Assembly: GCF_026130545.1 (NCBI RefSeq)
Contig: NZ_JAMOIM010000028.1
Span: 1-61,186 of the forward strand
Direction: 5' to 3'
From: Lichenifustis flavocetrariae
GTDB taxonomy: Bacteria; Pseudomonadota; Alphaproteobacteria; Rhizobiales; Beijerinckiaceae
DNA length: 61,186 nucleotides
In this document: positions 19,210-35,359 of the stretch, piece after piece
How the letters are laid out: every line of letters starts with the position of its first letter
How positions within the stretch are numbered: the first letter of the stretch is position 1
Notes under the pieces: generated by a model
Seen by the model: only the letters and a program-made list of their open reading frames with translations
Database searches by the model: none
What the model was told of the DNA's origin: nothing
Made by a program: the position numbers and the translations under genes

Positions 19210-21147
19210 ATGGAGCCAACTCCAATGGCACTTGTGAAAAAGGCAGCTCTGGCGTCCACCTCCGGCCGCACTTCGCCAGATGTGGCGATCGGGCGGCTCT
19301 CCCGATTGGCGGACGAAAATCGGAAGACGGTTCGAACGCATGCCCGCCAGCAAAAGGCGGCCGAGCGGATCGCCTCTGCGACGGCGCAGCTTGCCAGCGG
19401 CATCAGCGAATCCTCCTCGGCGGCCGAGGAATTGCGCAAGGCTATGGAATTGATCGCGGCGGGCGCCGAGGAAGCCTCGGCGGCGTCTGAGGAATCGCGC
19501 CGCGCCGTTACGGCCATCACGGCGACCCTGGCGCAAGCCAAGACGACTGCCGACACTTCCAAGCAGAAGTCGGACGCACTGCGGGTTCTGGTCGGCGATT
19601 TGTCGAAGCAGATGGCCTCGAGCATCACGAGCATCGGAACGGCCGCCGATCGGCAGACCAATTCCGTGACCATGATCCTCGAACTCGAGCGCCAGGCGGC
19701 GAGCATTGGCGACATCGTGCGTGCGGTCGGCCGGATCGCCGATCAAACGAACCTCCTCGCCCTGAATGCCGCCATCGAAGCGGCTCGCGCTGGTCAGCAC
19801 GGGAAGGGATTCGCGGTGGTGGCCGACGAGGTGCGCACTCTGGCAGAGACATCGGAGAAGAGCGCCCGGGAAATCCAAGAACTCATTGGAAAAATCCAAA
19901 CAGACGTAAAGGTGATCGCCGAGGGCATCAATGTTTCGGCCGAGTCGGCGCGCTCGGAGGTGATCAAAGGCAGGACGATCTCGACCCAGCTGGATTCGGT
20001 TCGCGGGTCGATGGCCGAAATCCTCAAGGGCGCAGAAGACATCCTCAAATATTCGATCGAGAGCGAGAAAGCCGCGACCGAGGCCCAGAAAGGATCAGAG
20101 ACCATCGCGGCAGCCGCCGAAGAGCAGTCGGCGGCCTGCGAAGAAGCGCTGAAGACAGTCGACCAGCAGACGACCGCGCTGTCGCAGAGCGATCAGGCCT
20201 CCAACGAGCTTTCGGCCTTGGCCGAGGACCTCAAGAACGCGACAGACGTTGGCAAGAGTGCCGAGGGCGTTGCTTCGGCGGCGGAAGAACTGTCCTCGGC
20301 AGTCGAGGAAATCAACCGCTCCGCCACAGAGATCATGACGGCACTCGATCAGATCAACCGTGGCGCCCAGCAGCAGTCAGCAGGGGCTCAACAGTCGGCC
20401 ACCTCGGTGGCGCAGATGGAGCGCGGCGCTACCGTCACCCAGCAACGCGCAAAAGACGCCCTGGAGCGCGGCGAGATCATCACCAAGCAGATCACCGAGA
20501 GCAGCGCGGGCGTCGATCAACTCATCGCGGGCGTGTCGCAGTCTTTGGAGGAAACCAACAAGACCCGCGATCAGGTCAACGCGCTGGAGCAGGTCAGCCG
20601 AAAGATCGACAAGATCGTCGATGCGATCTCGACGGTGGCGATCCAGACCAACATGCTGGCCGTCAACGGCTCCATCGAAGCCGCCCGCGCCGGTGAATTC
20701 GGCAAGGGCTTCATGGTCGTCTCGACCGATATCCGCAATCTAGCGCGCGATTCCTCGGAGAACGCCGAGCGGATCAAGGACCTCGTCAAGGCGATCCAGG
20801 ACCAGATCGTCGTCGTGCGTCGCGATCTCGACGAGATCTCGGTGGCGGCGGCCTCCGAAGTCGAGAAGAACAAGCTCATCACCAACAATCTCGTGCTGGT
20901 ACAGGACGATCTTGCTTTGGTCGTGACCGGCAACCAGGAACTCCTGATCGGCACCGAGCAGATCGTGCAGATGCTGAACGAGGCCAAGAAGGGGGTCGAA
21001 CAGATCACGGCCGCGGCCCAGCAGGCTGCGACCGCCTCCGGCCAGGCGCAACAGGCCGCGAAGGAGCAGGGCAAGGGCGCGGAGGAGCTGGCGGCGGCCA
21101 TCGAAGAGATCGCCTCGCTGGCCGACGAACTCCAGAGCCAGAGCTAA
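19210..21147 (+). CDS. soluble chemoreceptor-like protein with two signalling tips
   Basis: A 645-residue all-helical protein with no membrane segment or sensor domain. It contains two MCP hairpin tips. The first is near residues 176-213 ([20 protein letters not shown], then [12 protein letters not shown]). The second is near 476-515 ([20 protein letters not shown], then [12 protein letters not shown]). Glu/Gln-rich heptads on both sides could be methylation sites. Normal MCPs have one tip that binds CheA and CheW. It heads the operon and likely forms a cytoplasmic array with the triple-CheW protein that follows. Confidence 0.88.
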
Positions 21148-21171
21148 GCCCGTCCTTCAGGAGACGTCATC

Positions 21172-22764
21172 ATGTCCAGCACAATGGAGGCGGTGCTCGA
21201 GCGCGACGCCGCGAGCGACCCCTCGGAGGCGGGTGCCGGACCCGGGTCTCGGGCCGAAATCCAGACAACGCGTCAGTTCGTCACCTTTCACATGGAGAAT
21301 GAGACTTTCGCGGTTCCGCTGACCGACGTGCAGGAGATCATCCGCCTGCCCGCCATGGTGGAGGTTCCGATGGCGGCCGCAAGCCTCGAAGGGCTCGCCA
21401 ACCTGCGCGGATCGGTGCTCCCGATCCTCAACCTTCGGCGCATCTTCCAGATGCCGGATGTGGTCCATGACGACTCGACCCGCGTGGTCGTGCTCAACAA
21501 CGGCAAGCCTGTTGGCTTCGTCGTGGATCGGATGGCGCGTGTCGTGACGGCTGAGCCGCGCGAGATCGAGAGCATCGACGGGATCCGCGCGACGGTCGAC
21601 ACCGATCTCCTGGAAGGGATCATCAAGCGCGCCCAGGCGATGATCATGATCCTCAGCACGTCCAAACTGGCCGTCGAGATGGGCCAATTGGGGACGCGCG
21701 GACCAGGCAAGGCCGGGCACGACAGCGGGACTGGCGTCGTTGACGCAAAGGCCGAAGCAGCTGATTCGGACGAGATCCAACTGGTCTCGTTCGAACTCGA
21801 TCGCCAGGAATATGCGCTGCCGATCGAAAGCGTGCAGGAGATCGTCCAGGTTCCGGAAACGATCAACTCAATCCCCAACGCACAGGGTCACGTGCTCGGG
21901 GTCATGAACCTGCGCAATCGCCTGCTGCCGCTCGTGAGCCTTCGCTCGATGTTCGGTCTGCCTTCGACTGCGGTCGGGGAGCAGAGCCGGATCGTGGTCG
22001 TGGCACATTCGGTCGACGGTCAGGTTCAGGCTGTCGGCCTCGTCACCGACACTGTCAAGGAGGTGCTGCGGATCCCGCGTTCGATCGTCGATCCCTTGCC
22101 CAATCTGCTCTCGTCGGGGTCAGGCCAGCGCGAAATCGAGAACATCTGCCGGATGGACGGCGGAAAGCGGCTCGTCTCGATCCTGCTGCCCGACCGCCTC
22201 TTCCTCAACAGTGCCATTCGCGACGCGATCGGTGGGATGGCCGAAACCGATGGGCAGAGCGACATGAAGGCCGAGGCGGAGATAGTCGCCGACCGCATCG
22301 ATGACGAGGAGCAATTCGTCGTCTTCCGGGTCGCGGAGGAAGAATACGGCGTGCCGATCGACGCCGTACAGGAAATCGTGCGTATTCCCGATCAGTTGAC
22401 CCGCGTTCCGAAGTCTCCCGCCTTCGTCGAAGGCGTGGTCAACCTTCGTGGCGCGGTGCTGCCGGTCATCGATCAGCGGCGGCGCTTTTCGCTGCCCGAC
22501 GTCGAGCGCAACGACCGGCAGCGCATCATGGTCTTCATGGTGCATGGGGTCCGCACGGGTTTCATCGTGGATTCGGTGTCCGAAGTGTTGAAGATCGCGC
22601 GGTCGCAGATCTCCGAAGCGCCAGATGTCGCCGTCAACGACGGAAGTGCTGTGGCCCGCGTCGCCAATATCGTCAACCTGAAGCGCATGATCCTGATGCT
22701 CGACGTCGAGCGATTACTGACGAAGTCGGAAACCAATGCTCTGAAAAAAGCGCGGCCAACCTGA
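21172..22764 (+). CDS. cheW: triple CheW-domain adaptor
   Basis: A 530-residue protein made of three consecutive CheW domains, at about residues 34-165, 200-340 and 372-515. Each repeats the pattern VPL-DVQEI-R-P followed by GLANLRGSVLPILNLR, GVMNLRNRLLPLVSLR or GVVNLRGAVLPVIDQR. CheW links chemoreceptors to CheA; a triple form could bridge several receptors or rings. It lies 24 bases after the double-tip receptor and before CheB. It has no other domain. Confidence 0.92.
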   Translation: MSSTMEAVLERDAASDPSEAGAGPGSRAEIQTTRQFVTFHMENETFAVPLTDVQEIIRLPAMVEVPMAAASLEGLANLRGSVLPILNLRRIFQMPDVVHDDSTRVVVLNNGKPVGFVVDRMARVVTAEPREIESIDGIRATVDTDLLEGIIKRAQAMIMILSTSKLAVEMGQLGTRGPGKAGHDSGTGVVDAKAEAADSDEIQLVSFELDRQEYALPIESVQEIVQVPETINSIPNAQGHVLGVMNLRNRLLPLVSLRSMFGLPSTAVGEQSRIVVVAHSVDGQVQAVGLVTDTVKEVLRIPRSIVDPLPNLLSSGSGQREIENICRMDGGKRLVSILLPDRLFLNSAIRDAIGGMAETDGQSDMKAEAEIVADRIDDEEQFVVFRVAEEEYGVPIDAVQEIVRIPDQLTRVPKSPAFVEGVVNLRGAVLPVIDQRRRFSLPDVERNDRQRIMVFMVHGVRTGFIVDSVSEVLKIARSQISEAPDVAVNDGSAVARVANIVNLKRMILMLDVERLLTKSETNALKKARPT

Positions 22765-22778
22765 CGTCTGAAGACGTT

Positions 22779-22809
22779 CGGCGACCCGGGACCTCGTCCT
22801 GGGTCGCCG
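22779..22809 (+). terminator. strong hairpin between cheW and cheB
   Basis: CGGCGACCC (22779-22787) pairs perfectly with GGGTCGCCG (22801-22809), and a run of five T follows 15 bases later. It may reduce transcription into cheB and the rest of the operon, or stabilise the upstream mRNA. It is not a canonical terminator because the T-run is displaced. Confidence 0.4.
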
Positions 22810-22860
22810 CATTGCGGACACATCCTTTTTCGACGTCTGCAAACCGCACCGGAGAGCATC

Positions 22861-23913
22861 ATGGTCAAGCTTCTGATCGTCGACGATTCCGCGCTGATGC
22901 GGAAGTGTCTGCGTGACATCTTCGAGGGGGCAGGGGGGTTCGAAGTGATCACGGCCCGCAACGGCCGCGACGCGCTGGCACAGGTTGCGCAGCACAATCC
23001 GGACGTGGTCACGCTCGACATCAACATGCCGGAGATGGACGGATTGACCTGCCTCTCCGAAATCATGACCACGGCCCCCCGCCCGGTCGTCATGGTGTCG
23101 TCCATCACGGCCAAAGGCGCGCAGGTGACCTTGGAGGCGCTCGAACTCGGCGCTGTGGACTATGTTGAGAAACCGGGCGGCACGGTGTCGTTGAATATCG
23201 ACAGCGTGCGCAAGGAACTGTTGGTGAAGATCGAGGCCGCGGCCCGGGCCAAGCCGCGTCGGACACGTGGCCTCGTCCAACGGGTCCGCGCAGTTTCCGA
23301 GAAGCAACCCAAGGTGCGCCCCGCCCCGTCGAACGACGCCGTGTCAGGGATCGTCATCATCGGCGTATCGACCGGCGGGCCCCGGACCTTGGAAGATGTA
23401 TTGCCGGAACTGCCAGCCGATTTTCCGTGGGCCGTCGTGGTCGCGCAGCACATGCCGGGCGCCTTCACGGCGTCCTTCGCGTCGCGGCTCGACAAGATCT
23501 GTCAGATGACGGTCGTCGAGGTGGCCGGCCCGCTGCCGTTGCGGCGCGGCCACATCTACATCGGCCGAGGCAATGCCGATGTAATCATCGACACGCGCCT
23601 CGGCCGCACCATCGTCAATTCCGTGCGCGAGGACAGCACGTTCCTTTGGCATCCGAGCGTCGAGCGGCTGGTGAGGTCCGCCATGCGGGCAACGGAGCCG
23701 GGCCGGCTTGTCTCCGTGCAGCTCACCGGCATGGGCAACGATGGCGCCGAGGCGATGACAGCCCTGCGCAAGGCTGGTGGCCGCACCATCGCCGAGCATG
23801 AATCGACGGCTATCGTCAACGGTATGCCGGCCGAACTGATCCGGCTTGGCGGAGCCGACACCATCCTTCCATCCGACAAGATTGCGGAACGACTGACTTC
23901 CTGGATCATGTGA
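22861..23913 (+). CDS. cheB: chemoreceptor methylesterase CheB
   Basis: A 350-residue CheB: receiver domain at 1-125 with phosphoacceptor Asp53 (TLDINMPEMDGL), a linker, then the methylesterase domain at 160-350. The catalytic triad is Ser170 (GVSTGGP), His197 (AQHMPG) and Asp294 (GMGNDGAEAM). It demethylates or deamidates receptor glutamates when phosphorylated by CheA. It acts opposite the CheR encoded two genes downstream, so this array should be adaptable. Confidence 0.95.
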   Translation: MVKLLIVDDSALMRKCLRDIFEGAGGFEVITARNGRDALAQVAQHNPDVVTLDINMPEMDGLTCLSEIMTTAPRPVVMVSSITAKGAQVTLEALELGAVDYVEKPGGTVSLNIDSVRKELLVKIEAAARAKPRRTRGLVQRVRAVSEKQPKVRPAPSNDAVSGIVIIGVSTGGPRTLEDVLPELPADFPWAVVVAQHMPGAFTASFASRLDKICQMTVVEVAGPLPLRRGHIYIGRGNADVIIDTRLGRTIVNSVREDSTFLWHPSVERLVRSAMRATEPGRLVSVQLTGMGNDGAEAMTALRKAGGRTIAEHESTAIVNGMPAELIRLGGADTILPSDKIAERLTSWIM

Positions 23914-23920
23914 GACATCC

Positions 23921-24535
23921 ATGCCGCTGATCAAAGCTTCGAACGTCTCGGCCCGGAAGAAAGCGCAGCCAGTCGCGACGATCGACCGGCTGGCTATCGC
24001 TCGTGATCTCGAAAGCCTCGACGTCGACACCCGCATCGCGGCCATCCGGCTCGCCGCACGCTTCGGCGAGGCGGAGCTTCTCACCCGACACTTGGCGGCG
24101 GAAACCGACCCGGTTCTGCGCGAGACCCTGCTGACAAGTCTCGTGCGGATCGGCGGTGTCAGGGCTGCCCGCCCCCTGATTGCCTTGCTGGCCACCGATG
24201 ACGCCTCTCTGCGCAATGCCGTGATCGAGACGTTGCAGAGCATGGGCGAAGAAGTACTACCCGAGATCGAGGCGCAACTTGAAAACCAGGATTCCGATCT
24301 GCGCATCTACGCGGTGAACATGCTTCTCTCGTTTCGTAGTCCGCGCGTACCGGATATCGCGCTGCGGGTCATCGCGCAGGATCCGCATGTCAATGTCTGC
24401 GCCGCGGCCGTCGATGTCCTGGCGGAAGTGGGACGGCCCGAGATGGTGGAGGCGTTGCAGGCCGCCGCCGCCCGTTTCTCCGACCAGCCCTTCCTGTCGT
24501 TCGCGGTTCGCGCGGCCGCCAAGCGGATTGGATAG
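23921..24535 (+). CDS. HEAT-repeat protein of the chemosensory operon
   Basis: A 204-residue all-helical protein with at least four HEAT-like repeats (RIAAIRLAARFGEAELLTRH, VLRETLLTSLVRIGGVRAAR, LRNAVIETLQSMGEEVLPEI, VNVCAAAVDVLAEVGRPEMV). Such repeats form protein-binding scaffolds. It is inserted between cheB and cheR with only a few bases on either side, so it probably regulates or localises the adaptation enzymes. No catalytic motif. Confidence 0.8.
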   Translation: MPLIKASNVSARKKAQPVATIDRLAIARDLESLDVDTRIAAIRLAARFGEAELLTRHLAAETDPVLRETLLTSLVRIGGVRAARPLIALLATDDASLRNAVIETLQSMGEEVLPEIEAQLENQDSDLRIYAVNMLLSFRSPRVPDIALRVIAQDPHVNVCAAAVDVLAEVGRPEMVEALQAAAARFSDQPFLSFAVRAAAKRIG

Positions 24536-24538
24536 ACT

Positions 24539-25396
24539 GTGGCTGTCCCCTCGCAGAACGTGAGCATCCCACCGATCTCGGACGAAGACTTCTTGAAATT
24601 CAGGGAGTATTTTTACCGCAAGACAGGAATCATGTTCCAGGACAACAAGCGGTATTTTGTCGACAAGCGTATCCAGAGCCAAATGGAAAGCGGCGGTTTC
24701 AGGAACTTTCGGCAGTATTTCGACCGGGTTTGCTTTCAGTCCGACGGCGTCGAGCTGCAGGCTCTCGTCAACGCCATGACGGTCAACGAGACCTACTTCT
24801 ACCGCGAAGAATACCAGCTCAAATGCCTCGTCCAGTCCATTCTCCCCGAGGTCGTGAAAAACATGCATTCCGGTGAGACCATCAAGATCTGGTCGATGCC
24901 GTGTTCGACCGGCGAGGAGCCCTATTCAATCGCCTTCTATCTTCTCGAACACTGGTCGCGTGTCGATGACTTCAACATCGAGATCGTCGCATCGGATATC
25001 GACACCGAAGTCCTGCGGAAAGCCAAACTCGGCCTCTACGCCGATCGCGCCGTCCAATATGTCTCGCAAGAGACAGTCGGCAAATATATGACGATGACCC
25101 GAGACGGCAAATTCCAAGTCATCGACGACCTGCGCAAATCCATCAAATTCACGCAGACGAATATCATCGACGCGATCGAGGATCGATTCTACAGGGGCTT
25201 CGATGTCGTCTTTTGCAGAAATCTCCTGATCTACTTCGACGATCTGTCACGTCGGGAGGCGGCTGAAGCCATTTTCACCGCCTTGAGCCCGGGCGGTTTC
25301 GTCTGCCTCGGTCATTCCGAATCCATGAGCCGCATCTCGTCTCTCTTCGAGCTTCGAAAGTTTCCCGAAGCGATCGTCTATCAGAAGCCTGCCTAA
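24539..25396 (+). CDS. cheR: chemoreceptor methyltransferase CheR
   Basis: A 285-residue CheR. The N-terminal helical domain (FLKFREYFYRKTGIMFQDNK) is followed by the signature TVNETYFYRE. The SAM-binding fold carries SMPCSTGEEPYSIA and VASDIDTEVL, and FDVVFCRNLLIYFD is the usual late motif. It transfers methyl groups from SAM to receptor glutamates. The GTG start lies a few bases after the HEAT gene stop. Confidence 0.95.
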   Translation: MAVPSQNVSIPPISDEDFLKFREYFYRKTGIMFQDNKRYFVDKRIQSQMESGGFRNFRQYFDRVCFQSDGVELQALVNAMTVNETYFYREEYQLKCLVQSILPEVVKNMHSGETIKIWSMPCSTGEEPYSIAFYLLEHWSRVDDFNIEIVASDIDTEVLRKAKLGLYADRAVQYVSQETVGKYMTMTRDGKFQVIDDLRKSIKFTQTNIIDAIEDRFYRGFDVVFCRNLLIYFDDLSRREAAEAIFTALSPGGFVCLGHSESMSRISSLFELRKFPEAIVYQKPA

Positions 25397-25398
25397 TC

Positions 25399-25803
25399 AT
25401 GAATAGGACTCAGATGCCGCACGTCCTGATCATCGACGATTCAAGTACGACGCGACTCTATTATCGCGAAATCCTGGAAGAGGCAGGCTTTGTCGTCGAT
25501 GAGGCGATCAACGGCATCGAAGGATTGGAAAAGGCCATGAACCGGAGCTTCGACATCTTTCTGGTCGATCTGAACATGCCGAAAATGGATGGCTATACCT
25601 TCCTGGGTCAGATCCGTCGGACCGTCGAATTGGAGGCTGTTCCCGCCATCATGATCTCGACCCAAGCACGCGAGGCCGATCAGGTCAAAGCTTACGCGGC
25701 GGGTGCCAATCTCTACATGATTAAACCTGTTCACGCCGCCGATCTCACCACCCGAAGCCGGCTGATCACCGGCCAAGGGGCCTCGCCCCGGATGGCGTCA
25801 TGA
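25399..25803 (+). CDS. single-domain response regulator (CheY-like)
   Basis: A 134-residue receiver with no output domain. DDSSTTRLYY gives the acidic pocket, FLVDLNMPKMDGY contains the phosphoacceptor Asp, and the Thr/Lys switch pair is in ISTQAREA and MIKPVH. It starts just after cheR and overlaps cheA by four bases, so CheA is its obvious donor. It could act on a motor or as a phosphate sink; this cluster contains three such proteins. Confidence 0.9.
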   Translation: MNRTQMPHVLIIDDSSTTRLYYREILEEAGFVVDEAINGIEGLEKAMNRSFDIFLVDLNMPKMDGYTFLGQIRRTVELEAVPAIMISTQAREADQVKAYAAGANLYMIKPVHAADLTTRSRLITGQGASPRMAS

Positions 25804-28418
25804 ACCCGCTTCTCGCCCAGTTTATTCCCGAGGCCCGCGACCTCCTGGAACAAGCCGGTAACGGCATGCTCGCGCTCGAGCGCGACGCGGGATCGCAGAG
25901 CGTCATCAACGACGTGTTCCGCGCCGTCCACACATTGAAAGGCTCCTCGGGCCTGTTCGACGTTGGCCCGTTGACGCGCCTCGTCCACGCTGCCGAGGAC
26001 CTGCTCGGCGAGGTTCGCACCGGCGAGATCCCTCTCAATTCCGATATCGTCGATCGTCTGCTCGACAGTCTCGATCTTGTCGGCCGCTGGATCGACGCGC
26101 TCGAGACGCGGGAAGCGCTGCCGAGCGATGCCGAAGCCACGATGACCGAGCGGGTCAAGGTGCTGCGCAGTTGGCTCGCCGAGCCGTCAACAGCCGGTCT
26201 CGACAGGGCGACTGCGCCCATGACGTCGGTCGTCACCGAGGTGCCGGACTGGCTCGACCGGTTTCCCGAAGCCGATCGGATGACGGCCTTCAAGGCGCTG
26301 TCGCGCCCACGGCTTCTCGCGTGGTCCTTCGAGCCGGATGAGGATTGCTTCTTCCGGGGCGACGATCCGGTCGCCATGCTGCGTCACGCGCCGGGCATTC
26401 TCACGCTTCGAGCTGGCCCGCGCGCGCCATTTCCCACCTTCGACAGCATGGACCCGCTGTCCTGCCTGCTGCGGTTCGAGGTCTTGAGCGACACGACACG
26501 CGCCGAACTCGACGAGCATATGCGCTACGTCATCGAGCGTGTTGATATCCGGGAGATCGCAAGTGCCGATCTGGCGTCGCCGGTCGGCAAAGCGGCGGGT
26601 GGGCCGGTGTTCGGCGACTTTGGCAGGCTCGCGCGCCAGCACCTGGCGGGTGGCGACCGCACGGCCCTTGAACGTGCCGTGTCGACACTGCTGACCATGA
26701 TCGCGCCTGCCAGCTTCCAGGCTTCGGCCTTGCGGTGGGTGCAGGCTCATCTGTCTTGCCACGGACTGGACAGGCGTGGCGATCTCGAGCGCTTGATCGC
26801 GGCCGTCGAGACCGGTGTTCTTCCGCCGCGAAGCGAACATCCGGCGGCGACGTCATCCGCCGCCGAGCCGGCGCCATCGCCCACGGAAGGCGAAGCCGCG
26901 CTCCACGATACGGCCCGGACGATCGCGGCCGAGCAGATCAAGGTTCTCAAGACACCGGCTGATCCAGCCCTTGCCCAAGGACGCCTCGAAGCGGTCGCCA
27001 CCGTGCTGAAGAATTTGGCCGACGCCCTCGGCGACAGTCACATGGCGGCCGAGTTGCCCAACGCCGTTACCGCCTTCCGTCAAACCGGCGATCTCGGACC
27101 CCTGCAGGCCCTGGTCGAGACGTTGGGAGAACAACGACCCGAAATTCCGCCGCCAGACCGGATCGCGCCATCTGCCGCCGAGCCGATACCAGCGAGCAGC
27201 AAGCCCGGGGCGGCGGTCGACGAGCACGGCGACGTCAAGGCCTTGCCGCGTGTGCTCCGCGTCGATCAGTCCAAGATCGACTCGATCATGAATCTCGTCG
27301 CCGAACTGATCGTCGCGAAGAACGGGCTCTCCTATCTGGCGACCCGGGCCGAACAGGTGCACGGATCACGTGTCGTGGCCCGTGAAATCAAAGATCAATT
27401 CGCCGTCATCGACCGGATCACCCAGGGACTTCAGGTCGGTGTCATGGCGGTGCGCATGATGCCGGTGAGCCAGGTGTTCCAGAGGTTTCCCCGGCTCGTA
27501 CGCGACATCTCCCGAAAGCTCGGCAAGAAGATCGAGCTTGTGATCGAGGGCGAAGACACGGAAGCCGACAAGAACGTGCTTGAAAGCCTGGCCGATCCGC
27601 TGATCCACATGGTCCGCAACAGTCTCGACCATGGAATCGAGACGCCGGACGAGCGAAAAGCGGCTGGCAAGCCTGAACAGGGCGTGTTGAAGATCGTGGC
27701 GCGGCAGGAAAACGACTTTGTCGTGATCGAGGTCAGCGACGACGGCAAGGGCATCGATCCCCTTCGTGTAAAGGCGAAGGCGCTGAAACTCGGTTTGATC
27801 TCACCCGAACGTGCCGAGCAGATGAATGATGGCGAGGCCATCAATCTCGTCTTCGACGCCGGCCTCTCGACCAAGGAGGAAGTATCGGATCTGTCCGGCC
27901 GGGGGGTCGGAATGGATGTCGTACGCTCGGCCGTCATCAAGGCGGGAGGCGAGGTCTCGCTCCGCTCCACTCTCGGGGCCGGGACGCTCGTCACCGTTCG
28001 CCTTCCCCTGACGATGGCGGTCACCCGCATCGTGACCATCGAATGCCGCGGCCGAATCTTCGGCATTCCGATGGACCACGTCGTTGAAACTGTGCGGGTC
28101 AAACGCGAACACATCCATCGCATCAAGGCGATGGAGACCTTCGTGCTGCGCGACACGATCATTCCGATCGCGCGGTTGGCGCGCGCACTTCGCTTGCCCG
28201 AAGTCGCGAGCGACGCCCAACGCGACGAAGAGGCCGTCATGGTCGTCAAGGTCGGCCGCGAGCGGGTCGGCATGGTGGTCGATGGCTTTCGCGAGCGGCT
28301 GGAGGTCATCGTCAAACCGCTCGAAGGCGTGCTGGAAGGGCTACCGGGTTTTTCGGGAACCGCTCTGCTGGGTGACGGGCAGGTCCTTCTCGTCCTCGAT
28401 CTTCAGGAGATGCTTTGA
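25800..28418 (+). CDS. cheA: chemotaxis histidine kinase CheA
   Basis: An 872-residue CheA. The phosphoacceptor in the N-terminal Hpt domain is His44 (RAVHTLKGSSG). A long variable middle region (about 130-480) replaces a standard P2 domain. P3 dimerisation begins at VLRVDQSKIDSIMNLVAELI near 482, the kinase N box is MVRNSLDHGIE near 604, then come DDGKGID and SGRGVGMDVV, with a CheW-like P5 at the end. No receiver domain is attached. It should phosphorylate CheB and the single-domain regulators of the operon. Confidence 0.95.
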   Translation: MNPLLAQFIPEARDLLEQAGNGMLALERDAGSQSVINDVFRAVHTLKGSSGLFDVGPLTRLVHAAEDLLGEVRTGEIPLNSDIVDRLLDSLDLVGRWIDALETREALPSDAEATMTERVKVLRSWLAEPSTAGLDRATAPMTSVVTEVPDWLDRFPEADRMTAFKALSRPRLLAWSFEPDEDCFFRGDDPVAMLRHAPGILTLRAGPRAPFPTFDSMDPLSCLLRFEVLSDTTRAELDEHMRYVIERVDIREIASADLASPVGKAAGGPVFGDFGRLARQHLAGGDRTALERAVSTLLTMIAPASFQASALRWVQAHLSCHGLDRRGDLERLIAAVETGVLPPRSEHPAATSSAAEPAPSPTEGEAALHDTARTIAAEQIKVLKTPADPALAQGRLEAVATVLKNLADALGDSHMAAELPNAVTAFRQTGDLGPLQALVETLGEQRPEIPPPDRIAPSAAEPIPASSKPGAAVDEHGDVKALPRVLRVDQSKIDSIMNLVAELIVAKNGLSYLATRAEQVHGSRVVAREIKDQFAVIDRITQGLQVGVMAVRMMPVSQVFQRFPRLVRDISRKLGKKIELVIEGEDTEADKNVLESLADPLIHMVRNSLDHGIETPDERKAAGKPEQGVLKIVARQENDFVVIEVSDDGKGIDPLRVKAKALKLGLISPERAEQMNDGEAINLVFDAGLSTKEEVSDLSGRGVGMDVVRSAVIKAGGEVSLRSTLGAGTLVTVRLPLTMAVTRIVTIECRGRIFGIPMDHVVETVRVKREHIHRIKAMETFVLRDTIIPIARLARALRLPEVASDAQRDEEAVMVVKVGRERVGMVVDGFRERLEVIVKPLEGVLEGLPGFSGTALLGDGQVLLVLDLQEML

Positions 28419-28654
28419 TGCCGATCCGCACGGAAGACTCGCTGATCGCCCTCGATGGTCATTGCACCATCGAAGAGGCGGAAGCGTTGTTCGAGATTCT
28501 GCGCGGCATCGAAGAGCCGGTTTTCGACCTCGCGGCGACCAATACGCTGCACACCGCAATCGTGCAGTTGATCATGGCCTCGTCGGGTGTGGTTCGAAAC
28601 ATTCCCGATGACCCGGTTCTCGCGGCCTGCTTTCACAACCGTCGCGCGGCTTAG
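28415..28654 (+). CDS. small STAS-like protein
   Basis: A 79-residue protein coupled to cheA by a four-base overlap. LIALDGHCTIEEAEALFEIL and VFDLAATNTLHTAIVQLIMA resemble short STAS/MlaB-like domains in chemosensory clusters, with Leu-His-Thr in the place of the usual phosphorylated Ser/Thr region. STAS proteins take part in partner switching, so it may be a physical link between CheA and the Rsb-like module encoded downstream. That link is inferred. Confidence 0.65.
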   Translation: MMPIRTEDSLIALDGHCTIEEAEALFEILRGIEEPVFDLAATNTLHTAIVQLIMASSGVVRNIPDDPVLAACFHNRRAA

Positions 28655-28663
28655 GGTAACACC

Positions 28664-29422
28664 ATGCCGACGCAAGTCATCGCCATCGCCAACTGCAAGG
28701 GAGGAACCGGCAAAACGACGACGACGGTCAATCTTGCGGCCGAAATGGCGCATCGGGGACGCCGTGTTTTGCTCGTCGATCTGGATGCGCAAGGGCACGC
28801 GGGCCTCGGCTTCGGCGTCTTCGCCGACCAGGATGAGGCGACCGCGCATCAGGTCTTTCGCCGATCGGGTGTAAGCGTCGTGGGAGCGATCCGGCGCAGC
28901 GCCACGGTTGGGCTCGACATCCTGCCTGCCGATCCGACATTCAGAAATCACGGCATGGCCAATGATCCCCGTCGCCTTGCCCAAGCGCTAACGGACCTTG
29001 GTGATCGCTACGACACGATCCTCATCGACACGCCCCCCTCGGCCGATCTGCCGCTCGTCGCCGCTCTGGCGGCCGCGCATTGCGTCCTCGTCCCCAGTCA
29101 GCTGACACATCTGGCCCATCACGGTCTTGTTCAGTTTTCGCGGCTCTTCTTCAATGTCGCGACCGGGCTCAATCCTCTCTTAAACGCGTTCGCAATCGTT
29201 CCCGTCCAGGTCGACATGCGGATGCACCTCCAACAGAAAATCTTAGCGAAATTACTGCAAGATTTCGGGCCGGAGAGGATCTTTCGTGGTATTCGGACCG
29301 ATGTCGCGCTTGCCGAGGCTTTTGGAGCTGGATGTCCCGTCCGAAACTATCGCCCGACAACGCGGGGAGCCCGTGATTACAACCTTCTCGCAGATGACGT
29401 ATCTGGTTTTTGGACCCACTAG
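28664..29422 (+). CDS. ParA-like ATPase of the chemosensory cluster
   Basis: A 252-residue deviant-Walker ATPase: NCKGGTGKTTTTVNLA holds the Walker A with signature lysine, VLLVDLDAQGHAGLG is the A' motif, and ILIDTPPSADLP is Walker B. Relatives (ParC, PpfA) position chemoreceptor arrays and secure their inheritance. Its location between cheA and cheY indicates the same role rather than plasmid partition; there is no ParB gene or parS-like repeat nearby. Confidence 0.88.
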   Translation: MPTQVIAIANCKGGTGKTTTTVNLAAEMAHRGRRVLLVDLDAQGHAGLGFGVFADQDEATAHQVFRRSGVSVVGAIRRSATVGLDILPADPTFRNHGMANDPRRLAQALTDLGDRYDTILIDTPPSADLPLVAALAAAHCVLVPSQLTHLAHHGLVQFSRLFFNVATGLNPLLNAFAIVPVQVDMRMHLQQKILAKLLQDFGPERIFRGIRTDVALAEAFGAGCPVRNYRPTTRGARDYNLLADDVSGFWTH

Positions 29423-29449
29423 CCACCGATCGGGGCTGGAGACATCGAG

Positions 29450-29821
29450 ATGAAACCTGTTCTACTTGTCGATGATTCGCCGACCATGCTGTCCAGTATG
29501 TCGAGCATCCTGAAGAAAGCGGGCTTCGCGTGCGAAACCGCGGGAACCGGTGAGGCAGCGCTAAGCAAAGTGAGCGGCGGGTTGTCACCTTGTCTCGTGA
29601 TCACGGATTATCACATGCCTGGCATGCATGGTGTCGATCTGATCGGCAAGCTGCGCAAGCTGGCGCCAACCCGCTTCGTGCCCATGCTGGTGCTCACGAC
29701 CGAATCCCAGCCCGAGAAGCGTGGCGCCGCCAAGGCCGCAGGTGCCACGGGCTGGCTCGTGAAACCCGTCGATCCGGCGGCTTTGCTTCAGGTTGTCAAG
29801 CAGTTGGTGCCGGGCGCATGA
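29450..29821 (+). CDS. cheY: single-domain response regulator (CheY-like)
   Basis: A 123-residue Che[16 protein letters not shown] forms the acidic pocket, [15 protein letters not shown] carries the phosphoacceptor Asp, LTTESQ the switch Thr, and WLVKPVDP the conserved Lys. The TTES-QPEKR pattern is close to canonical motor-binding CheY. It ends by overlapping the start of the second receptor gene by four bases. Confidence 0.92.
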
Positions 29822-31221
29822 CCAGCGTCGCCGTGTCGGTGCGCGCAGCCTCTACGTCCGACGCATACGACGACGTCGACGGCCCTGCCGCGGCTGCATC
29901 GACGTCGTCGCACGACATGAGAAGGACTGTGTTCAAGGCTTTGATCAGGGTCGGTGTTGCTGCGGTAGCGGTCATGGCGGATCTTGGCCTGCACCGGGTT
30001 CTCCCCGGTGCCTTGACCGCGCTTGCGCCTGTAACGGCATTTGCCTTCGGGATGGCCGCTCATTGGCTGACAGGGGCGCAGCGGCAGGGTGCGGGGAGCG
30101 GTGCCGAACCCGCATCGCGCCCCGATCGGGCTGCGGCTGAACCGGAAATGGTCGGAGCCGAACGTTCCGGTGTCACGTTGGTGGAGGCGAACGAACGCGA
30201 CGGCCGTAACGATGTCATTGCATTTCCGGGCCGCCGATCGACCCCAGAGATGGACCGTGCCGTCCAGGAACTCGACCAGTATAGCGCGTTCACCGACATT
30301 CTGGCCAAGCAGTTGAAATCCGTCACCGATGTGAGCGAAGAGGCGGCGGGAACCATTCTCAGCAATTTAACCGGGGTCGACGAGAAGGTCAGTGACCTGC
30401 TGACCTTCATCCAGACATCTGGGTCGAGCGACCAGGTGACGCAAGTCATTTCCGAGATCGAAAGCCAGATGCAGGGCTGCCGCGAGCTCCTGGATCGATT
30501 TGCCATTCGCCAAAGGGACGACGCACAGGAGAGCCAAAGGCAGCGTTCACAACTCGGTGCCGACACGCGCAGTGTGCTCGATGCGCTCGATGGTGTGAAC
30601 CGCATAGCCCGCCAGACGACCATGCTGTCGCTCAACGTGTCGATTGAAGCTGCGCGGGCTGGCGAAGCCGGGCGGGGCTTTTCGGTGATCGCGGTCGAAA
30701 TCCGCAAACTGGCCTCCGAAGTCCAGGCGATTTCAAACGATGTTCACAGTCGCGTTGAAGCCTTGATGCAGTCGGTCACCGTCGATCTCAGTCTTCAGAC
30801 CCAGAATCGCGAAGAGGCGGGGCACAACGCCATTGCAAATATCGCTCAAACGCTCAGCGCCCTGACCGACAACCTCATGACCCTGGTGGCGCATCAGCGT
30901 GACATTCTCCAGAAGGTCGAGATCGAGAACGAGGCGATTGCCAAGCCGCTGATGGATATGATGGGCAGCATCCAGTTCCAGGACATCATCCGCCAGCAGT
31001 TGGAACAATTGAGCCGCATGGCGACCCAGGTCGGCGAGCATCTGGCCGCTGTCTCCGCCATGCTCGGCTCCGCCAAGACCGACATGGACGACGAGATGCT
31101 GTCGGACAAACTCGATCAGATGTTCAACGGCTACGTGATGGCCGGTCAGCGCGAAACCCATATGGCCGCACGCGGCCAAGCCGTCACCCAAGACACGGCC
31201 GCACGCATTGAGCTCTTCTAG
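29818..31221 (+). CDS. membrane-anchored chemoreceptor-like protein
   Basis: A 467-residue receptor with two adjacent membrane segments (about 42-58 and 65-86) and almost no periplasmic loop, so it cannot carry a normal periplasmic sensor. The signalling tip is near 264-300 ([18 protein letters not shown], then [15 protein letters not shown]). The helical bundle before and after is shorter than in typical receptors. It probably anchors the array to the membrane or senses within the cytoplasm or bilayer. Start chosen at the ATG that overlaps the cheY stop. Confidence 0.85.
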
Positions 31222-31242
31222 CCTACGATCAGGATATCTGTG

Positions 31243-31641
31243 ATGGCAGCCGTATTGCTGATCGAAGACGTGGCCGTCGTGCGGACGACCTTGATGAAGT
31301 TCCTGGAGCGAGGTGGCCACGCGGTGACCGTCTGCGAGGGAAGCCATGAGGCGTGGAGGCTTCTGAACCAGCAACGCTTCGACGCGGTGGTGACCGACAT
31401 CTGGATGAAGGACGGCGACGGCCTCGATTTGATTGGCCGCATCCGTGCCAGAGGTGATACGACTCCGATCGTCGTGATCACGGGTGGCGATCCGCGATCA
31501 CCCCAATCGACCTCTGTCGATGCGGCCATCCGGGCGGGGGCAAATCAGGCCCTGATGAAACCCGTGACCAAGACGCTGCTGTTGGACACGGTGACCGCGT
31601 GTCTCCAATCTCCGGGGAAAGAGAATGACGGACAAGCCTGA
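31243..31641 (+). CDS. single-domain response regulator
   Basis: A 132-residue receiver: [33 protein letters not shown] with the phosphoacceptor Asp, [10 protein letters not shown] and ALMKPVTK. No output domain. AGGAT precedes the ATG; a GTG one codon upstream is also possible. It lies exactly between the chemosensory and Rsb-like halves and overlaps the RsbR-like gene by 17 bases, so it could receive phosphate either from CheA or from the terminal kinase. Confidence 0.88.
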
Positions 31642-32485
31642 GGCCAAGGGCCCGATGGTTCTCGGTGAACGCCGCGACGACATTGCCAAGTCCTGGATCC
31701 AGAAGATCCTCGCGGTCGCGACCGAGAGCGGCAGTTCAGCGCTGACGGTAACGATGCTTAAGGCTGAGGCCCTCGAACTCCTCAATGCCTTCTGTCGGTT
31801 CGTGAGTGTCGCCGGCTACGATATCGAGTCCCGTCACTTCGCACCTGTGGCGGAACTCGCGGCGCGGATCAGCGCCAATCATGCGCGCGAGGGGCTGACC
31901 CCGACCGAGACAGCCGTCTTCGTGCTGTCGTTCAAGGATGCGCTCCTGCCCGTGATGATTGAGGCCTTCGGCGACGATCCGCGGGGGCTTCTCGATGAAC
32001 TGGCGAGCATCAATCGCGTGGTGGATTACCTGTCCATCGAGACCTTCGCGGCTTTCTCGCGGACGCGGGAACAGACGATCGAGCGTCAGAGCCGGGCCAT
32101 TCTGGAACTGTCGACACCGATTCTCCAGGTCTGGCAGGACGTCATCCTGATGCCGCTCGTCGGTGTGATCGATACGATGCGGGCCCAGCAAGTGATGGAA
32201 AATCTACTGAACGCCATCGTCCGGGAACGTGCGCTCGTCGCCATTCTGGACGTCTCGGGAGTGCCCATCATCGACACAAGCGTGGCGCTCCATCTCACAA
32301 AGACCGTCAGCGCCGCCAGCATGCTCGGTGCGCAGGTGGTGCTCACCGGAATCAGCCCCGATGCGGCACAGACTCTGGTCAAGCTCGACGTCGACTTCTC
32401 CAATATCCGAACGAAGGGGACGCTCCGGGCGGGCCTTTCGGAAGCTCTGCGTCTTGTCGGTCAAAGCATCGAGGCGAGGCTCTAG
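31625..32485 (+). CDS. RsbR-like stressosome protein
   Basis: A 286-residue protein with a helical N-terminal sensory part (about 15-165) and a C-terminal STAS domain. The STAS region shows [20 protein letters not shown] and [20 protein letters not shown], matching RsbR including the two threonines phosphorylated by RsbT (in IIDTSV and, near the end, in RTKGTL). RsbR and RsbS form the large stressosome core that sequesters RsbT. It is followed ten bases later by an RsbS-like gene. Confidence 0.88.
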
Positions 32486-32494
32486 AGTTCTGCC

Positions 32495-32887
32495 ATGCGC
32501 ATCCCCATACTCAGGCTCGGCCGAATTCTTCTGACATCGGTTCAGACCGATCTGACCGATGACGACGCTGGGCAATTGCAGGCTGAAGTCCTTCAGCTCT
32601 TTCACAGAGATGTTGCCGACGGGCTGGTTCTCGACATCTCGGGTCTGGATGTTGTCGACTCCTACATGGCCCGCCTCCTGAACGAGACAGCCCGCATGGT
32701 TCGCATGATGGGGGGCGAGGTGGTGCTCACCGGCATGCATCCGATGGTGGCCTTGACCCTGGTCGAAATGGGACAGGAGATCATCGGCATCCAGACGGCC
32801 ATCGATCTCGAAGCCGGAGTGGCACGGCTTCGAGAGGTCATCCACGCCCGCGACAAGCGAACAACACAGGGTCGCACGACACCGTAA
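32495..32887 (+). CDS. RsbS-like STAS protein
   Basis: A 130-residue single STAS domain. LVLDISGLDVVDSYMARLL contains the serine that RsbT phosphorylates in RsbS, and GGEVVLTGMHPMVALTLVEM matches the second family segment. RsbS holds RsbT inactive until stress. The short C-terminal tail is basic. Gene order RsbR-RsbS-RsbT is the same as in Bacillus and in stressosome clusters of other phyla. Confidence 0.9.
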   Translation: MRIPILRLGRILLTSVQTDLTDDDAGQLQAEVLQLFHRDVADGLVLDISGLDVVDSYMARLLNETARMVRMMGGEVVLTGMHPMVALTLVEMGQEIIGIQTAIDLEAGVARLREVIHARDKRTTQGRTTP

Positions 32888-32896
32888 AACAAGGTC

Positions 32897-33349
32897 ATGC
32901 ATCATGCCGCCCAGCGCCACGAACCGAAAACATCGACCGTGAGCGACCGCGTGGACGCGATCGTCACCATCAAGGAGCAGACCGATATCCTCCATGCCCG
33001 GAGCGCGGGGCGTGAGGTCGCGCGCCAATTGGGCTTCGGCACCGTGGATCAGACACGGCTGGCCACGGCGATTTCGGAGATGGCCCGAAATGCGCTCAAC
33101 TATGGCAAGGGCGGTACCTGCACCATCGTAACCGAGAAGGGCCAAGATGGCCGCTTGACGATCCGCGTCCTCGTCGAGGACCATGGTCCCGGCATCGCCG
33201 ATGTCGCGCTCGCTTTGAAGCCCGGTTTCTCTAGCGGCGGTGGGCTCGGCCAAGGTTTGCCAGCCGTGCGCCGTTTGATGGACCATCTTGAGATCGACAG
33301 TCAGCCTGGCCGCACGACAGTCGTCGCGACCATGAGTCGTCGTCCGTGA
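32897..33349 (+). CDS. RsbT-like serine kinase
   Basis: A 150-residue HATPase_c switch kinase. The N box is AISEMARNALNYGKGG, the G1 box VEDHGPGIAD, and the lid FSSGGGLGQGLPAVRRLMD. RsbT phosphorylates RsbR and RsbS and, once released, activates a protein carrying the RsbU N-terminal domain. The ATG at 32897 has AAGG upstream; a GTG 42 bases later (SDRVDAIVTIK) would give the more usual length. Confidence 0.88.
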   Translation: MHHAAQRHEPKTSTVSDRVDAIVTIKEQTDILHARSAGREVARQLGFGTVDQTRLATAISEMARNALNYGKGGTCTIVTEKGQDGRLTIRVLVEDHGPGIADVALALKPGFSSGGGLGQGLPAVRRLMDHLEIDSQPGRTTVVATMSRRP

Positions 33350-33756
33350 GCGATGCGATGGATGTCACCGTCGCGGTCTTCGACGAAATGGATATTGCCC
33401 AGATCAGGATTGCGGCGCGCGACATGGCCAATCAACTGGGTTTTTCGAGTGCCAAGGCGTATCGGGTCGCCACGGCTGTCTCGGAGCTTGCCAACAATCT
33501 GCATGGCCATGCCTTGCCTGGCGGTACAATCCGTGTGACGCGGGTCAACAGGGCCGACCAGATCGGGATCGAGGTCGTGTCGCAGGACAGTGGACCCGGC
33601 ATCCCCGATATCGCCCTGGCGATGCGGGACGGCTATTCGACCAACCGGGGTCTGGGCGGCGGTCTTCCCGGCACGCGGCGGTTGATGGACGATTTTTCGA
33701 TCGAGTCGCAGGCCGGGGTCGGAACGAGGATCGTGGCGCGGATCTGGCGCCCATGA
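33346..33756 (+). CDS. second RsbT-like ATPase
   Basis: A 136-residue HATPase_c protein similar in layout to its upstream neighbour: AVSELANNLHGHALPGG, SQDSGPGIPDIALAMRDGY and NRGLGGGLPGTRRLMDDF. In the N box the residues around Asn differ (NNLHGHA against RNALNYG), so specificity or activity may have diverged. A GTG start overlaps the first kinase stop by four bases, and its own stop overlaps the phosphatase start. Tandem copies are frequent in non-Bacillus Rsb operons. Confidence 0.85.
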   Translation: MSDAMDVTVAVFDEMDIAQIRIAARDMANQLGFSSAKAYRVATAVSELANNLHGHALPGGTIRVTRVNRADQIGIEVVSQDSGPGIPDIALAMRDGYSTNRGLGGGLPGTRRLMDDFSIESQAGVGTRIVARIWRP

Positions 33757-34337
33757 TGTTTCACGGTCTGCGGCACTCACTGGATGCGAGCGCGCCGTGC
33801 GGCGACGCTTTCCTGTGCTGGCGGGAGGGGCCGCTCTGGACGATCTGTCTCGTCGATGGCCTGGGTCATGGTGCCGAGGCGGCGCTTGCCGCGGAGGCGG
33901 CGCTGACCGAAGCCGCGCGATGGAAGGCCCTCTCACCTGGCGATATCCTCAGTCGGGTCGACGACGCCATTCATGGCAGCCGCGGGGCAGCGATGAGTGT
34001 GGTGCGGATCGATGAGGCTCGCCGCACGCTGGAGCATGCCGGCGTGGGCAACATCCGCGTCGCCCTATTTGGCGACAAGACCCTTCGGCTCGATGGTAGA
34101 GCCGGGATCGTTGGTAACGGCTTCAAGCCCGGAGCATGGCCGTCACTGGGATGGCGCGACGGTGACGTTCTCGTTCTCTGGAGCGATGGGTTGGACCCCT
34201 ATCTGAAGCTTGACCGGCTTAGCCTTCGCCTGAAAGGCAATCCCGAAGCGCTCGCCGAAAGGTTGATCGATCAATTCTCCACCCGACGGGACGATTCTTG
34301 CATCGTCTGTTGCCTGCTCGGAGAGGCATTGGGGTGA
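33753..34337 (+). CDS. RsbX/SpoIIE-like PP2C phosphatase
   Basis: A 194-residue single-domain PPM phosphatase. Metal-binding aspartates are visible in APCGDAFLCW, LVDGLGHGAEA, LWSDGLDPYL and RRDDSCIVC. Its size and position after RsbT match RsbX, which dephosphorylates RsbR and RsbS to reset the stressosome. It overlaps genes on both sides by one to four bases. Confidence 0.88.
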   Translation: MMFHGLRHSLDASAPCGDAFLCWREGPLWTICLVDGLGHGAEAALAAEAALTEAARWKALSPGDILSRVDDAIHGSRGAAMSVVRIDEARRTLEHAGVGNIRVALFGDKTLRLDGRAGIVGNGFKPGAWPSLGWRDGDVLVLWSDGLDPYLKLDRLSLRLKGNPEALAERLIDQFSTRRDDSCIVCCLLGEALG

Positions 34338-35359
34338 TGGAGCGCTATGTCGGGCTCGTTCGGGCCTATGTGCGTGACGGCGACGAATCGAGCCTATTGG
34401 CGATCGGCGATCTACGCGACACGTTGCTGGCCCAAAACGTTCCCATGGAAGAGGTCGTCAATCTGCACGAGCAGGCCATGATGTCGCTCAAAGATCAGAT
34501 GTCGCAGGGTCGTTTCGACGAAATCATCACCAGGACTTCGACATGCCTCGCTGAACTCGTTATTGCCTATTCGTTCGCCGACCAGAAGAAAAAAGTGGTC
34601 CGGGAGCGTAGTCAGCGGGTCGAGCAGGATCGACAACGTCTCGAAGCGCTCGGGCAGATGGCCGGTGGTATCGCGCACGAGTTCAACAATCTGCTGCAAC
34701 CCATTATGGGCATGGCCGAGTTGGGTTTGGACGAAGCCGAACCCGGTAGCGAGCAGTCCGAGCGCTTGACGACGATCTTCGATTGCGCGAGCCAAGCGGC
34801 GATCATCGTGCGTGGCGTTCTGTCGACCGCCCGCAAGCAGGGTGCTGAGCCCAACCTGTGGCCTCTCGCGCCTCTCGTCGCGAAAACCGTGCAGTTTTTG
34901 TCAGCCATCATGCCGAGCGAGATCACGCTCGAGCTCGTCGTCGATTGTGGCGAGGAGCAAGTATTGTGCGACGAATCCGAACTGGGGCAGGTGCTCCTGA
35001 ACCTCATCCGGAACGCTAGCGATGCAATGGCGGGCAGTGGCGTGGTTCGCATCCGGCTCGAAAAAAAGCCGGGGCAGGGGAGCGTCGAAGGGTCGAGTGG
35101 GTTCCCCGCAAGCGATGTGCTGCGGCTCTCAGTGTCCGATGCCGGCGCCGGCATGCCGGCTGATGTGGCGGCGCGGGCCGGCCAGCCCTTCTTCACGACC
35201 AAGAGCCCCGGCCATGGCACCGGCCATGGCCTCGCCATCGTTCTGTCAATCGTCCACGGCTGGCATGGTGATTTGCAGATCGATACCGCGCCTGGTCAGG
35301 GCACACGGGTCTCGATCACGCTTCCAATCATCGAGAATGCCGCGTCCGCCGTTGCTTGA
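34337..35359 (+). CDS. histidine kinase with RsbU-like N-terminal domain
   Basis: A 340-residue kinase. Residues 1-80 (YVRDGDESSLLAIGDLRDTL, NVPMEEVVNLHEQAM) look like the RsbU_N fold that binds RsbT. A helical linker leads to the phosphoacceptor His114 in GGIAHEFNNLLQPIMGM, then the ATPase domain with LLNLIRNASDAMAG, SVSDAGAGMP and GHGTGHGLAIV. There is no membrane segment. In Bacillus this N-terminus is joined to a PP2C phosphatase; here it is joined to a histidine kinase, so RsbT release would feed a phosphorelay. It is the last operon gene. Confidence 0.85.
   Translation: MERYVGLVRAYVRDGDESSLLAIGDLRDTLLAQNVPMEEVVNLHEQAMMSLKDQMSQGRFDEIITRTSTCLAELVIAYSFADQKKKVVRERSQRVEQDRQRLEALGQMAGGIAHEFNNLLQPIMGMAELGLDEAEPGSEQSERLTTIFDCASQAAIIVRGVLSTARKQGAEPNLWPLAPLVAKTVQFLSAIMPSEITLELVVDCGEEQVLCDESELGQVLLNLIRNASDAMAGSGVVRIRLEKKPGQGSVEGSSGFPASDVLRLSVSDAGAGMPADVAARAGQPFFTTKSPGHGTGHGLAIVLSIVHGWHGDLQIDTAPGQGTRVSITLPIIENAASAVA

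Follow-up and report, generated by a model that had tools for sequence, protein, structure and literature searches.

The 61,186-nucleotide (nt) stretch of Lichenifustis flavocetrariae DNA analysed here, hereafter the window, carries at positions 19210-35359 a contiguous run of 18 plus-strand genes in which a chemosensory (che) array set leads directly into a stressosome module, and it is the join between these two halves that is addressed here. The window is one contig of a 180-contig, 7.5 Mb assembly, from the same family as Methylobacterium. The genes follow in the order MCP1 (a methyl-accepting chemotaxis protein), triple CheW (CheW3), CheB, HEAT, CheR, CheY1, CheA, STAS-like protein, ParA, CheY2, MCP2, receiver 3, RsbR, RsbS, RsbT1, RsbT2, RsbX and an RsbU_N kinase. 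All 18 frames are open, and the distances between neighbours range from -17 to +96 nt, the largest being that between CheW3 and CheB when the kinase start is taken as 34337. Pfam matches comprise MCPsignal in MCP1 and MCP2, three CheW domains within one protein, CheB, HEAT, CheR, three receivers, CheA and a ParA-type ATPase, followed in the stressosome block by RsbRD_N-STAS, STAS, two HATPase_c_2, SpoIIE/PP2C and RsbU_N-HisKA-HATPase. A preliminary description of the window had proposed just such a unit, array set first and stressosome second, and the open frames, close spacing and domain content bear it out; the hidden Markov model scan of each protein that it suggested backs the domain set, except for the small STAS protein, which has no match.

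The chemosensory half opens with MCP1 (19210..21147), a soluble, DosM-like receptor with two MCPsignal stretches; it has two signalling tips, each with EAARAG (at 190 and 490), and lacks any strongly hydrophobic window of 19 residues. The triple CheW follows (21172..22764; three CheW stretches, E-value 2.4e-94), and then CheB (22861..23913), the HEAT-repeat protein (23921..24535; HEAT_2), CheR (24539..25396) and receiver 1, or CheY1 (25399..25803; Response_reg, with CheY as the second-best NCBIfam match). CheA (25800..28418) combines Hpt, H-kinase_dim, HATPase_c and CheW domains, and its RAVHT(L/I)KG motif is present in 14 of 16 aligned rows, the remaining two not covering the site. A two-tip receptor and a concatenated triple CheW are hallmarks of the DosM/F9 type, and MCP1, the triple CheW and CheA probably constitute a cytoplasmic array of that type, a class assigned by make-up rather than by phylogeny and held with the same moderate confidence as the composite model of which it forms part.

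Downstream of CheA lie the STAS-like small protein (28418..28654), the ParA-type ATPase (28664..29422) and receiver 2, or CheY2 (29450..29821), for which CheY is the top NCBIfam match. The STAS-like protein of the window has no Pfam match even at E up to 1. Among its orthologues (20 of 23 rows aligned; L034, L045 and L046 left out), STAS_2 is matched in eight of the 20 at E up to 1, with a best value of 1.8e-5, and an unrelated SHOCT-like model likewise matches eight of the 20, with a best value of 0.0051. Threonine, serine or alanine stands at the position that we take to correspond to the phosphorylated serine of STAS antagonists.

MCP2 (29818..31221) is a receptor with hydrophobic windows at 38-61, near its N-terminus, and a CheZ-like tail. 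Of the 23 rows listed, 22 have QFQDxxRQ in this tail and end in IELF (the odd one, G536, is a different receptor), and so do all 14 tails that were aligned out of the 23. Two of four tails match the Pfam CheZ model below its cut-off (E 0.002 for the window, 0.015 for L028) and the other two do not; a weak match to the CheZ structure 1kmi (E 0.022) aligns FQD and the following Q, which we take to be the catalytic residues of CheZ. MCP2 is thus a possible candidate for a receptor carrying a built-in CheY phosphatase. The viral spike coiled-coil matches that the tail also returned in the PDB search were taken as chance.

The stressosome half is formed by RsbR (31625..32485; RsbRD_N plus STAS, matching solved RsbR chains), RsbS (32495..32887; STAS), the kinases RsbT1 (32897..33349) and RsbT2 (33346..33756), both HATPase_c_2, and an RsbX-like PP2C phosphatase (33753..34337; SpoIIE). 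From Bacillus subtilis we take T218 and T250 of RsbR to be the phosphorylated residues: T250 is found in all 14 of the joined loci described below, and position 218 is threonine in the window and Rhodoplanes types and serine in Methylobacterium. Serine 56 of RsbS is likewise present in 14 of 14, and the N-box asparagine and the GPGI box of RsbT1 and RsbT2 are kept in all rows listed. The unit therefore shows the hallmarks of a stressosome: an RsbR with a C-terminal STAS domain and kept residues, the RsbS serine, RsbT, RsbX, and an RsbU_N domain on the downstream effector.

That effector, the terminal gene, is a histidine kinase of RsbU_N-HisKA-HATPase make-up (34337..35359). Its place and type were as first described; its start most likely lies at ATG 34337, a position that gives a one-base overlap with the stop codon of RsbX, rather than at TTG 34298. 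RsbU_N was detected in all 12 kinase N-termini scanned at E up to 0.01, the alignment comprising 12 of the 14 kinases (L037 and L045 left out), and the profile of the N-terminal domain matches the solved RsbU chains 2j6z, 2j6y, 2j70 and 1w53. The kinase histidine is kept in 14 of 14 rows. The terminal kinase is the single RsbU_N match in the window genome.

Receiver 3 (31240..31641), a single-domain receiver by Pfam, lies at the junction, 18 nt after MCP2 in the window, and overlaps RsbR in 11 of the 14 joined loci; its acceptor aspartate is kept in all 14. The best NCBIfam scores of the window copy are for RssB, FixJ, TorS and others, and those of the G013 and L028 copies for CpdR. CheY ranks 21st for the G013 copy and does not appear among the 25 families listed for the copies of the window and L028, whereas for CheY1 and CheY2 it is among the top two families; all these scores are below the model cut-offs. 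Receiver 3 scores as RssB/CpdR-like and not CheY-like; the earlier assignment of the unit's last receiver to CheY did not hold, while those of the triple CheW, CheA and the other che genes are upheld by Pfam. In the four joined genomes searched there is one strong match to receiver 3 per genome, the next falling below 50 bits.

The same junction was found elsewhere. In total there are 14 distinct joined loci, in the window genome, Rhodoplanes serenus, Rhodovulum sp. PH10 and 11 Methylobacterium, and they keep one gene order, save that ParA is missing in two (G013 and M. bullatum). The full span from MCP1 to the kinase is visible in the window, G013 (apart from ParA), L044, G493 and G503; in the remaining joined loci the available DNA begins inside CheW3, and M. 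bullatum is covered only from the end of cheA on. Two pairs of identical loci (L031 and L044, L030 and L051) were each counted once, and L049 (G540), which ends after CheB, was not counted. At L028 the STAS-like gene was detected only at a laxer limit. In M. bullatum LMG 24788 (L030:75-1426), two minus-strand transposase-like frames, read by eye, replace most of cheA, and the stressosome block is intact. Adjacency by chance in the window genome might be suspected from the paralogous che unit that the same genome carries without a stressosome, but the 13 further joined loci with conserved order rule it out as a candidate and leave it next to no probability. The expectation of a conserved rather than accidental adjacency was hence borne out; as for the synteny on which it had been made to depend, the two halves do occur separately in the order, but it is not the case that they meet only here by chance.

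The joined unit is rare and patchy, because counts are low in the genus, order and class samples alike. A search for RsbR relatives gave a match in six of 100 genomes; besides the window genome, five genomes carried RsbR, with che genes in front only in G013. In the other four, RsbR, RsbS, several RsbT-like genes and RsbX are accompanied by neighbouring histidine-kinase domains, and the stretches covered gave no match to CheA, CheW or a receptor. A scan of species genomes with a two-row RsbR alignment, seeded with joined RsbRs and so biased towards joined loci, returned 11 confirmed loci, ten of them with the unit; the eleventh (L038, a Chloroflexaceae metagenome-assembled genome) encodes a long protein with an RsbR-like STAS domain at its C-terminal end, and its 5.9 kb hold no che genes. 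The ten, together with G013, G493, G503 and the window, make up the 14 joined loci. In the order sample, where as in the class sample only a few candidates per genome were scored, the triple CheW was found in five of 397 genomes and RsbR in 12 of 397, both occurring together only in the window genome and G013. RsbR was present in 14 of 385 genomes of the class sample, with identity above 47% again confined to these two.

Within Methylobacterium, RsbR is matched at E up to 1e-20 in 42 of 111 genomes. The 52 matches divide by identity: 13 of them, spread over 13 genomes, are at 47-50%, and the other 39 at 36-40%. Ten of these 13 genomes carry the triple CheW on the same contig, at a distance of about 10 kb; in G452 the unit is present from the end of cheA onwards, and G489 and G490 keep only RsbRSTTX, so that RsbR stands at a che unit in 11 of 13. 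The triple CheW (E up to 1e-80) occurs in 19 of the 111 genomes, namely those ten and nine without the 47-50% RsbR type.

Comparison with unjoined loci indicates which genes go with the join. The unjoined set consists of the nine che loci of the tree set, including the window-genome paralogue, three from order genomes and five from Methylobacterium, to which two plasmids are added; the contig of G361 ends just after MCP2, which makes it a row weak in position, although at E up to 1e-20 no RsbR was matched anywhere in that genome. All 14 joined loci have both receiver 3 (99-131 bits) and the RsbU_N kinase (188-259 bits), versus weak generic matches of at most 46 bits for receiver 3 and 36 bits for the kinase in the nine unjoined che loci, as far as the available DNA extends. 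Neither was found at the two solo loci (L043 and L050), where the Methylobacterium genomes G489 and G490 keep a near-identical RsbR-S-T-T-X of the che type by itself. Genome-wide, the RsbU_N domain is found in nine of 111 Methylobacterium genomes (E up to 0.001), all nine joined; joined G013 and G452 fall below this limit, and their kinase N-termini do match when isolated. Among 14 other genomes the domain occurs in one, the window genome. The STAS-like protein and CheY2, which had been put forward as cross-links between the halves, are both present without a stressosome in nine of nine unjoined che loci of the tree set and are rejected in that role, the varying residue of the former at the antagonist serine position also speaking against it; they belong to the che half. 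The parts linked to the join are receiver 3 and the RsbU_N kinase.

These observations bear on the direction in which a signal might pass. In one alternative the array would serve as input to the stressosome, CheA phosphorylating receiver 3, which would bind RsbRD_N of RsbR and cause RsbT release, the kinase having its targets elsewhere. The overlap of receiver 3 with RsbR and its invariant aspartate are in keeping with such a route, but receiver 3 is not CheY-like, whereas CheY1 and CheY2 are, and CheA does not appear to need receiver 3, because no ortholog of it was seen in unjoined che loci; we judge this alternative unlikely.

The place behind MCP2 is variably occupied. An HWE histidine kinase lies 30-222 nt after MCP2 in three of the five unjoined Methylobacterium loci (G505, G530 and G527; L048:4993-5706, L052:4507-5271 and L054:14086-14979), and in the window paralogue a PAS-type kinase frame, its domain read by eye, lies 696 nt past MCP2. 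A stressosome-free che unit is carried on plasmids of Methylobacterium currus (L055) and Methylosinus trichosporium OB3b (L056). On the latter, a kinase resembling that of the window (132 bits) and carrying PAS rather than RsbU_N lies near the che unit: at L056:7794-11987 an MCP2-like receptor (41% identical, with the same tail), an OmpR-type regulator and the PAS kinase follow one another, divergent from the che unit. The STAS-like query found no match on L056, where a small unnamed gene occupies its place. Different kinase outputs thus seem to find a place behind MCP2, which fits a reading of the stressosome block as one of them.

The two halves differ in their phylogenetic signal. In the RsbRST tree, the joined and the two solo loci form one clade (100/100) versus five unjoined loci. 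In the che tree, built from 22 of the 23 che loci with L031 replaced by L044 and M. bullatum L030 left out for its truncated cheA, joined and unjoined loci mix: the window falls in clade I with unjoined loci, clade II holds the remaining joined loci together with two unjoined ones, and a single joined clade is rejected (approximately unbiased test, p-AU 2.7e-67). Identities disagree in the same way, the che genes being at 44-74% between Rhodoplanes and Methylobacterium versus 33-59% between the window and Rhodoplanes, whereas the stretch from receiver 3 to the kinase gives similar values in the two comparisons (39-60 and 43-65%). As judged from trees and identities, the che and stressosome halves have different histories, and one and the same junction is found on two che cores that are deeply split. 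From this disagreement it follows that the junction was re-made, or was kept while the che core changed: either a joined ancestor underwent later che-core exchange, with losses elsewhere, or joining was repeated at one place, and both histories speak in favour of selection for the association. Among the che genes compared, only MCP2 is closer to its counterpart in joined Rhodoplanes (35%) than to that in unjoined clade I (23%), and a movement of the whole MCP2-to-kinase block into the window che unit was considered, with which the unrooted trees do not conflict.

From the observed gene content, conservation, domain assignments and kept catalytic and phosphorylated residues, together with the tracking of the join by receiver 3 and the RsbU_N kinase, we favour, with moderate confidence, a single composite signalling unit in which the RsbT-activated kinase, acting on receiver 3, would link stressosome and array. 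MCP1, the triple CheW and CheA would form the cytoplasmic array, served by its own CheR, CheB, CheY1, CheY2 and MCP2, and RsbR and RsbS a stressosome retaining RsbT. The next steps are modelled on known families, both for the RsbR/S/T/X cycle and for the action of RsbT on RsbU_N: upon a stimulus RsbT would phosphorylate RsbR and RsbS and depart, free RsbT would bind the RsbU_N domain of the terminal kinase and activate it, a step proposed because the kinase carries that domain, and RsbX would reset RsbR and RsbS. Beyond this point we infer the transfer from kinase to receiver 3, a signal passing on from there into the array, and which way the signal runs. The kinase would phosphorylate receiver 3, which would act through protein contact or by exchanging phosphate, its likeliest partner being the CheA Hpt domain or the array. 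In this arrangement receiver 3 and the kinase, which bracket RsbRSTTX, resemble a CckA-type hybrid kinase split in two. A stronger version, in which RsbT-activated kinase, receiver 3 and CheA Hpt form one phosphorelay, array and stressosome each control the state of the other, and arrays of this class serve stress control instead of motility, is offered as a tentative possibility.

Several results weigh against the composite unit. Promoter-like sites (four found, 3.5 expected) and terminator-like sites (13 found, 11.6 expected) are no more frequent than by chance. In 12 of the 13 joined loci besides the window, MCP2 and receiver 3 lie 83-196 nt apart, far enough to fit a promoter, so that transcription may split at this point; in L028 the distance is 36-57 nt. 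NCBIfam scores of receiver 3 and the kinase, the latter best for VirA-like and CckA kinases, are far below the model cut-offs, so that their pairing is one of likeness only. The RsbU_N domain in Methylobacterium is weak and partial, with three of 111 genomes above the Pfam cut-off and matches to profile positions 1-46 of 75. The group tested in the che tree was named after the first tree had been seen, and the analysis carried a long-branch warning. Finally, both halves persist alone, as nine unjoined and two plasmid che loci and as RsbRSTTX in G489 and G490. Such separate occurrence, the wide gap and the presence of che units on plasmids would also suit mere neighbours without cross-talk, a che module and a stressosome two-component module (RsbT to kinase to receiver 3) travelling as an island and acting separately, all the more as receiver 3 and the kinase suffice as a self-contained stressosome output. 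It is hard to reconcile with this, however, that the junction recurs in 14 loci, at least three genera and both che cores, that 11 of 13 Methylobacterium genomes with this RsbR type keep RsbR beside the che unit, that only 18 nt separate MCP2 and receiver 3 in the window, and that other kinases occupy the same slot in other che units; separate action of the two modules is accordingly regarded as rather improbable.

As to the surroundings, the unit is preceded by a minus-strand GAF histidine kinase gene (17340-18518) and followed by a gene annotated as a LacI-type regulator (35531-36577). Control of the unit by an alphaproteobacterial promoter of the EcfG type was rejected: the motif gave two matches in the window versus 1.27 expected, and the nearer of them falls within the upstream kinase gene, 1.3 kb ahead of MCP1. 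The assembly contains further che genes on other contigs, including C114. Its second che unit, on contigs C149 and C170, shares 76-97% protein identity with that of the window and has ParA, no receiver 3 and no stressosome; it could derive from another strain, as assembly contamination is 3%. This paralogous unit is broken at the start of cheA at the ends of L024 and L025, and both contig ends share one terminal sequence in inverted orientation, of the kind that an insertion element leaves behind.

The natural contrast between joined, unjoined and solo loci, including joined and unjoined units in one assembly, makes for a clean test, with one particular kinase and one particular receiver, in identified Methylobacterium species, as a joint test case, and the conserved block suggests a testable role for a poorly understood type of sensing array. 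Going by locus tags, the gene order of the wider Vibrio cholerae cluster presumably agrees with that of the window unit.

The following comparisons with published systems refer to the available portions of the papers cited. Cluster I of V. cholerae, of class F9, comprises the receptor DosM (VC1403), a triple CheW (VC1402) and CheA (VC1397), and its function is described as elusive (PMC7534058). The double-tip receptor, concatenated triple CheW and CheA are the same in the window, whose F9 class rests on make-up and not on phylogeny; unlike the window, the V. cholerae system comes with no mention of a stressosome in the available text. In Gram-negative RSTX stressosomes of the Vibrio vulnificus type, RsbR, RsbS, RsbT and RsbX are followed by signalling proteins; there are eleven downstream types, and in some alpha-, beta- and gammaproteobacteria downstream proteins bear RsbU_N (PMC9237108). 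The window shares the RsbR-S-T-X order, the signalling proteins behind it and the downstream RsbU_N, but the V. vulnificus type has a globin RsbR, whereas the window unit has an RsbR with RsbRD_N, preceded by a separate receiver and a whole che operon, and it has a second RsbT; in that paper the word chemotaxis is confined to two references. RsbT binds the N-terminal domain and linker of RsbU, and activates through RsbU_N (PMC9237108, PMC12143880); kinases with that domain have been noted in rsbT operons (PMC12143880). This activation was demonstrated for a phosphatase and only modelled for a kinase, and the window effector is a histidine kinase. Since the role of the F9/DosM array is elusive (PMC7534058) and the outputs of Gram-negative stressosomes are mostly proposals (PMC9237108, PMC4976288), the joined unit offers both a partner.

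That a chemosensory-stressosome unit had not been described, as first claimed, holds as far as the open PMC papers searched are concerned, in which none was found, Pane-Farre 2005 and 2017 and Marles-Wright 2008 being known as references only; the idea of a link between stressosome and aerotaxis does have a precedent. It was proposed for Vibrio brasiliensis on the basis of RsbRST with a CheY-like neighbour (PMC4976288) and stated for bacteria without sigma-B, citing Marles-Wright 2008 (PMC4260858). That proposal shares the notion of a stressosome feeding a taxis-type pathway but concerns a single CheY-like neighbour, the available text naming no chemosensory operon and no RsbU_N kinase. At the che1 locus of Shewanella oneidensis, the partner switch CrsR/CrsA, tied to the stress response and acting on RpoS, lies in the operon of an F7 array (PMC9855816). 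Neither RsbRST nor an RsbU_N kinase is listed there in the available portion, and the array is F7; like the window unit, che1 is a che operon containing a partner-switching module, and with CrsR/CrsA it is the nearest precedent for a che operon joined to a partner switch.

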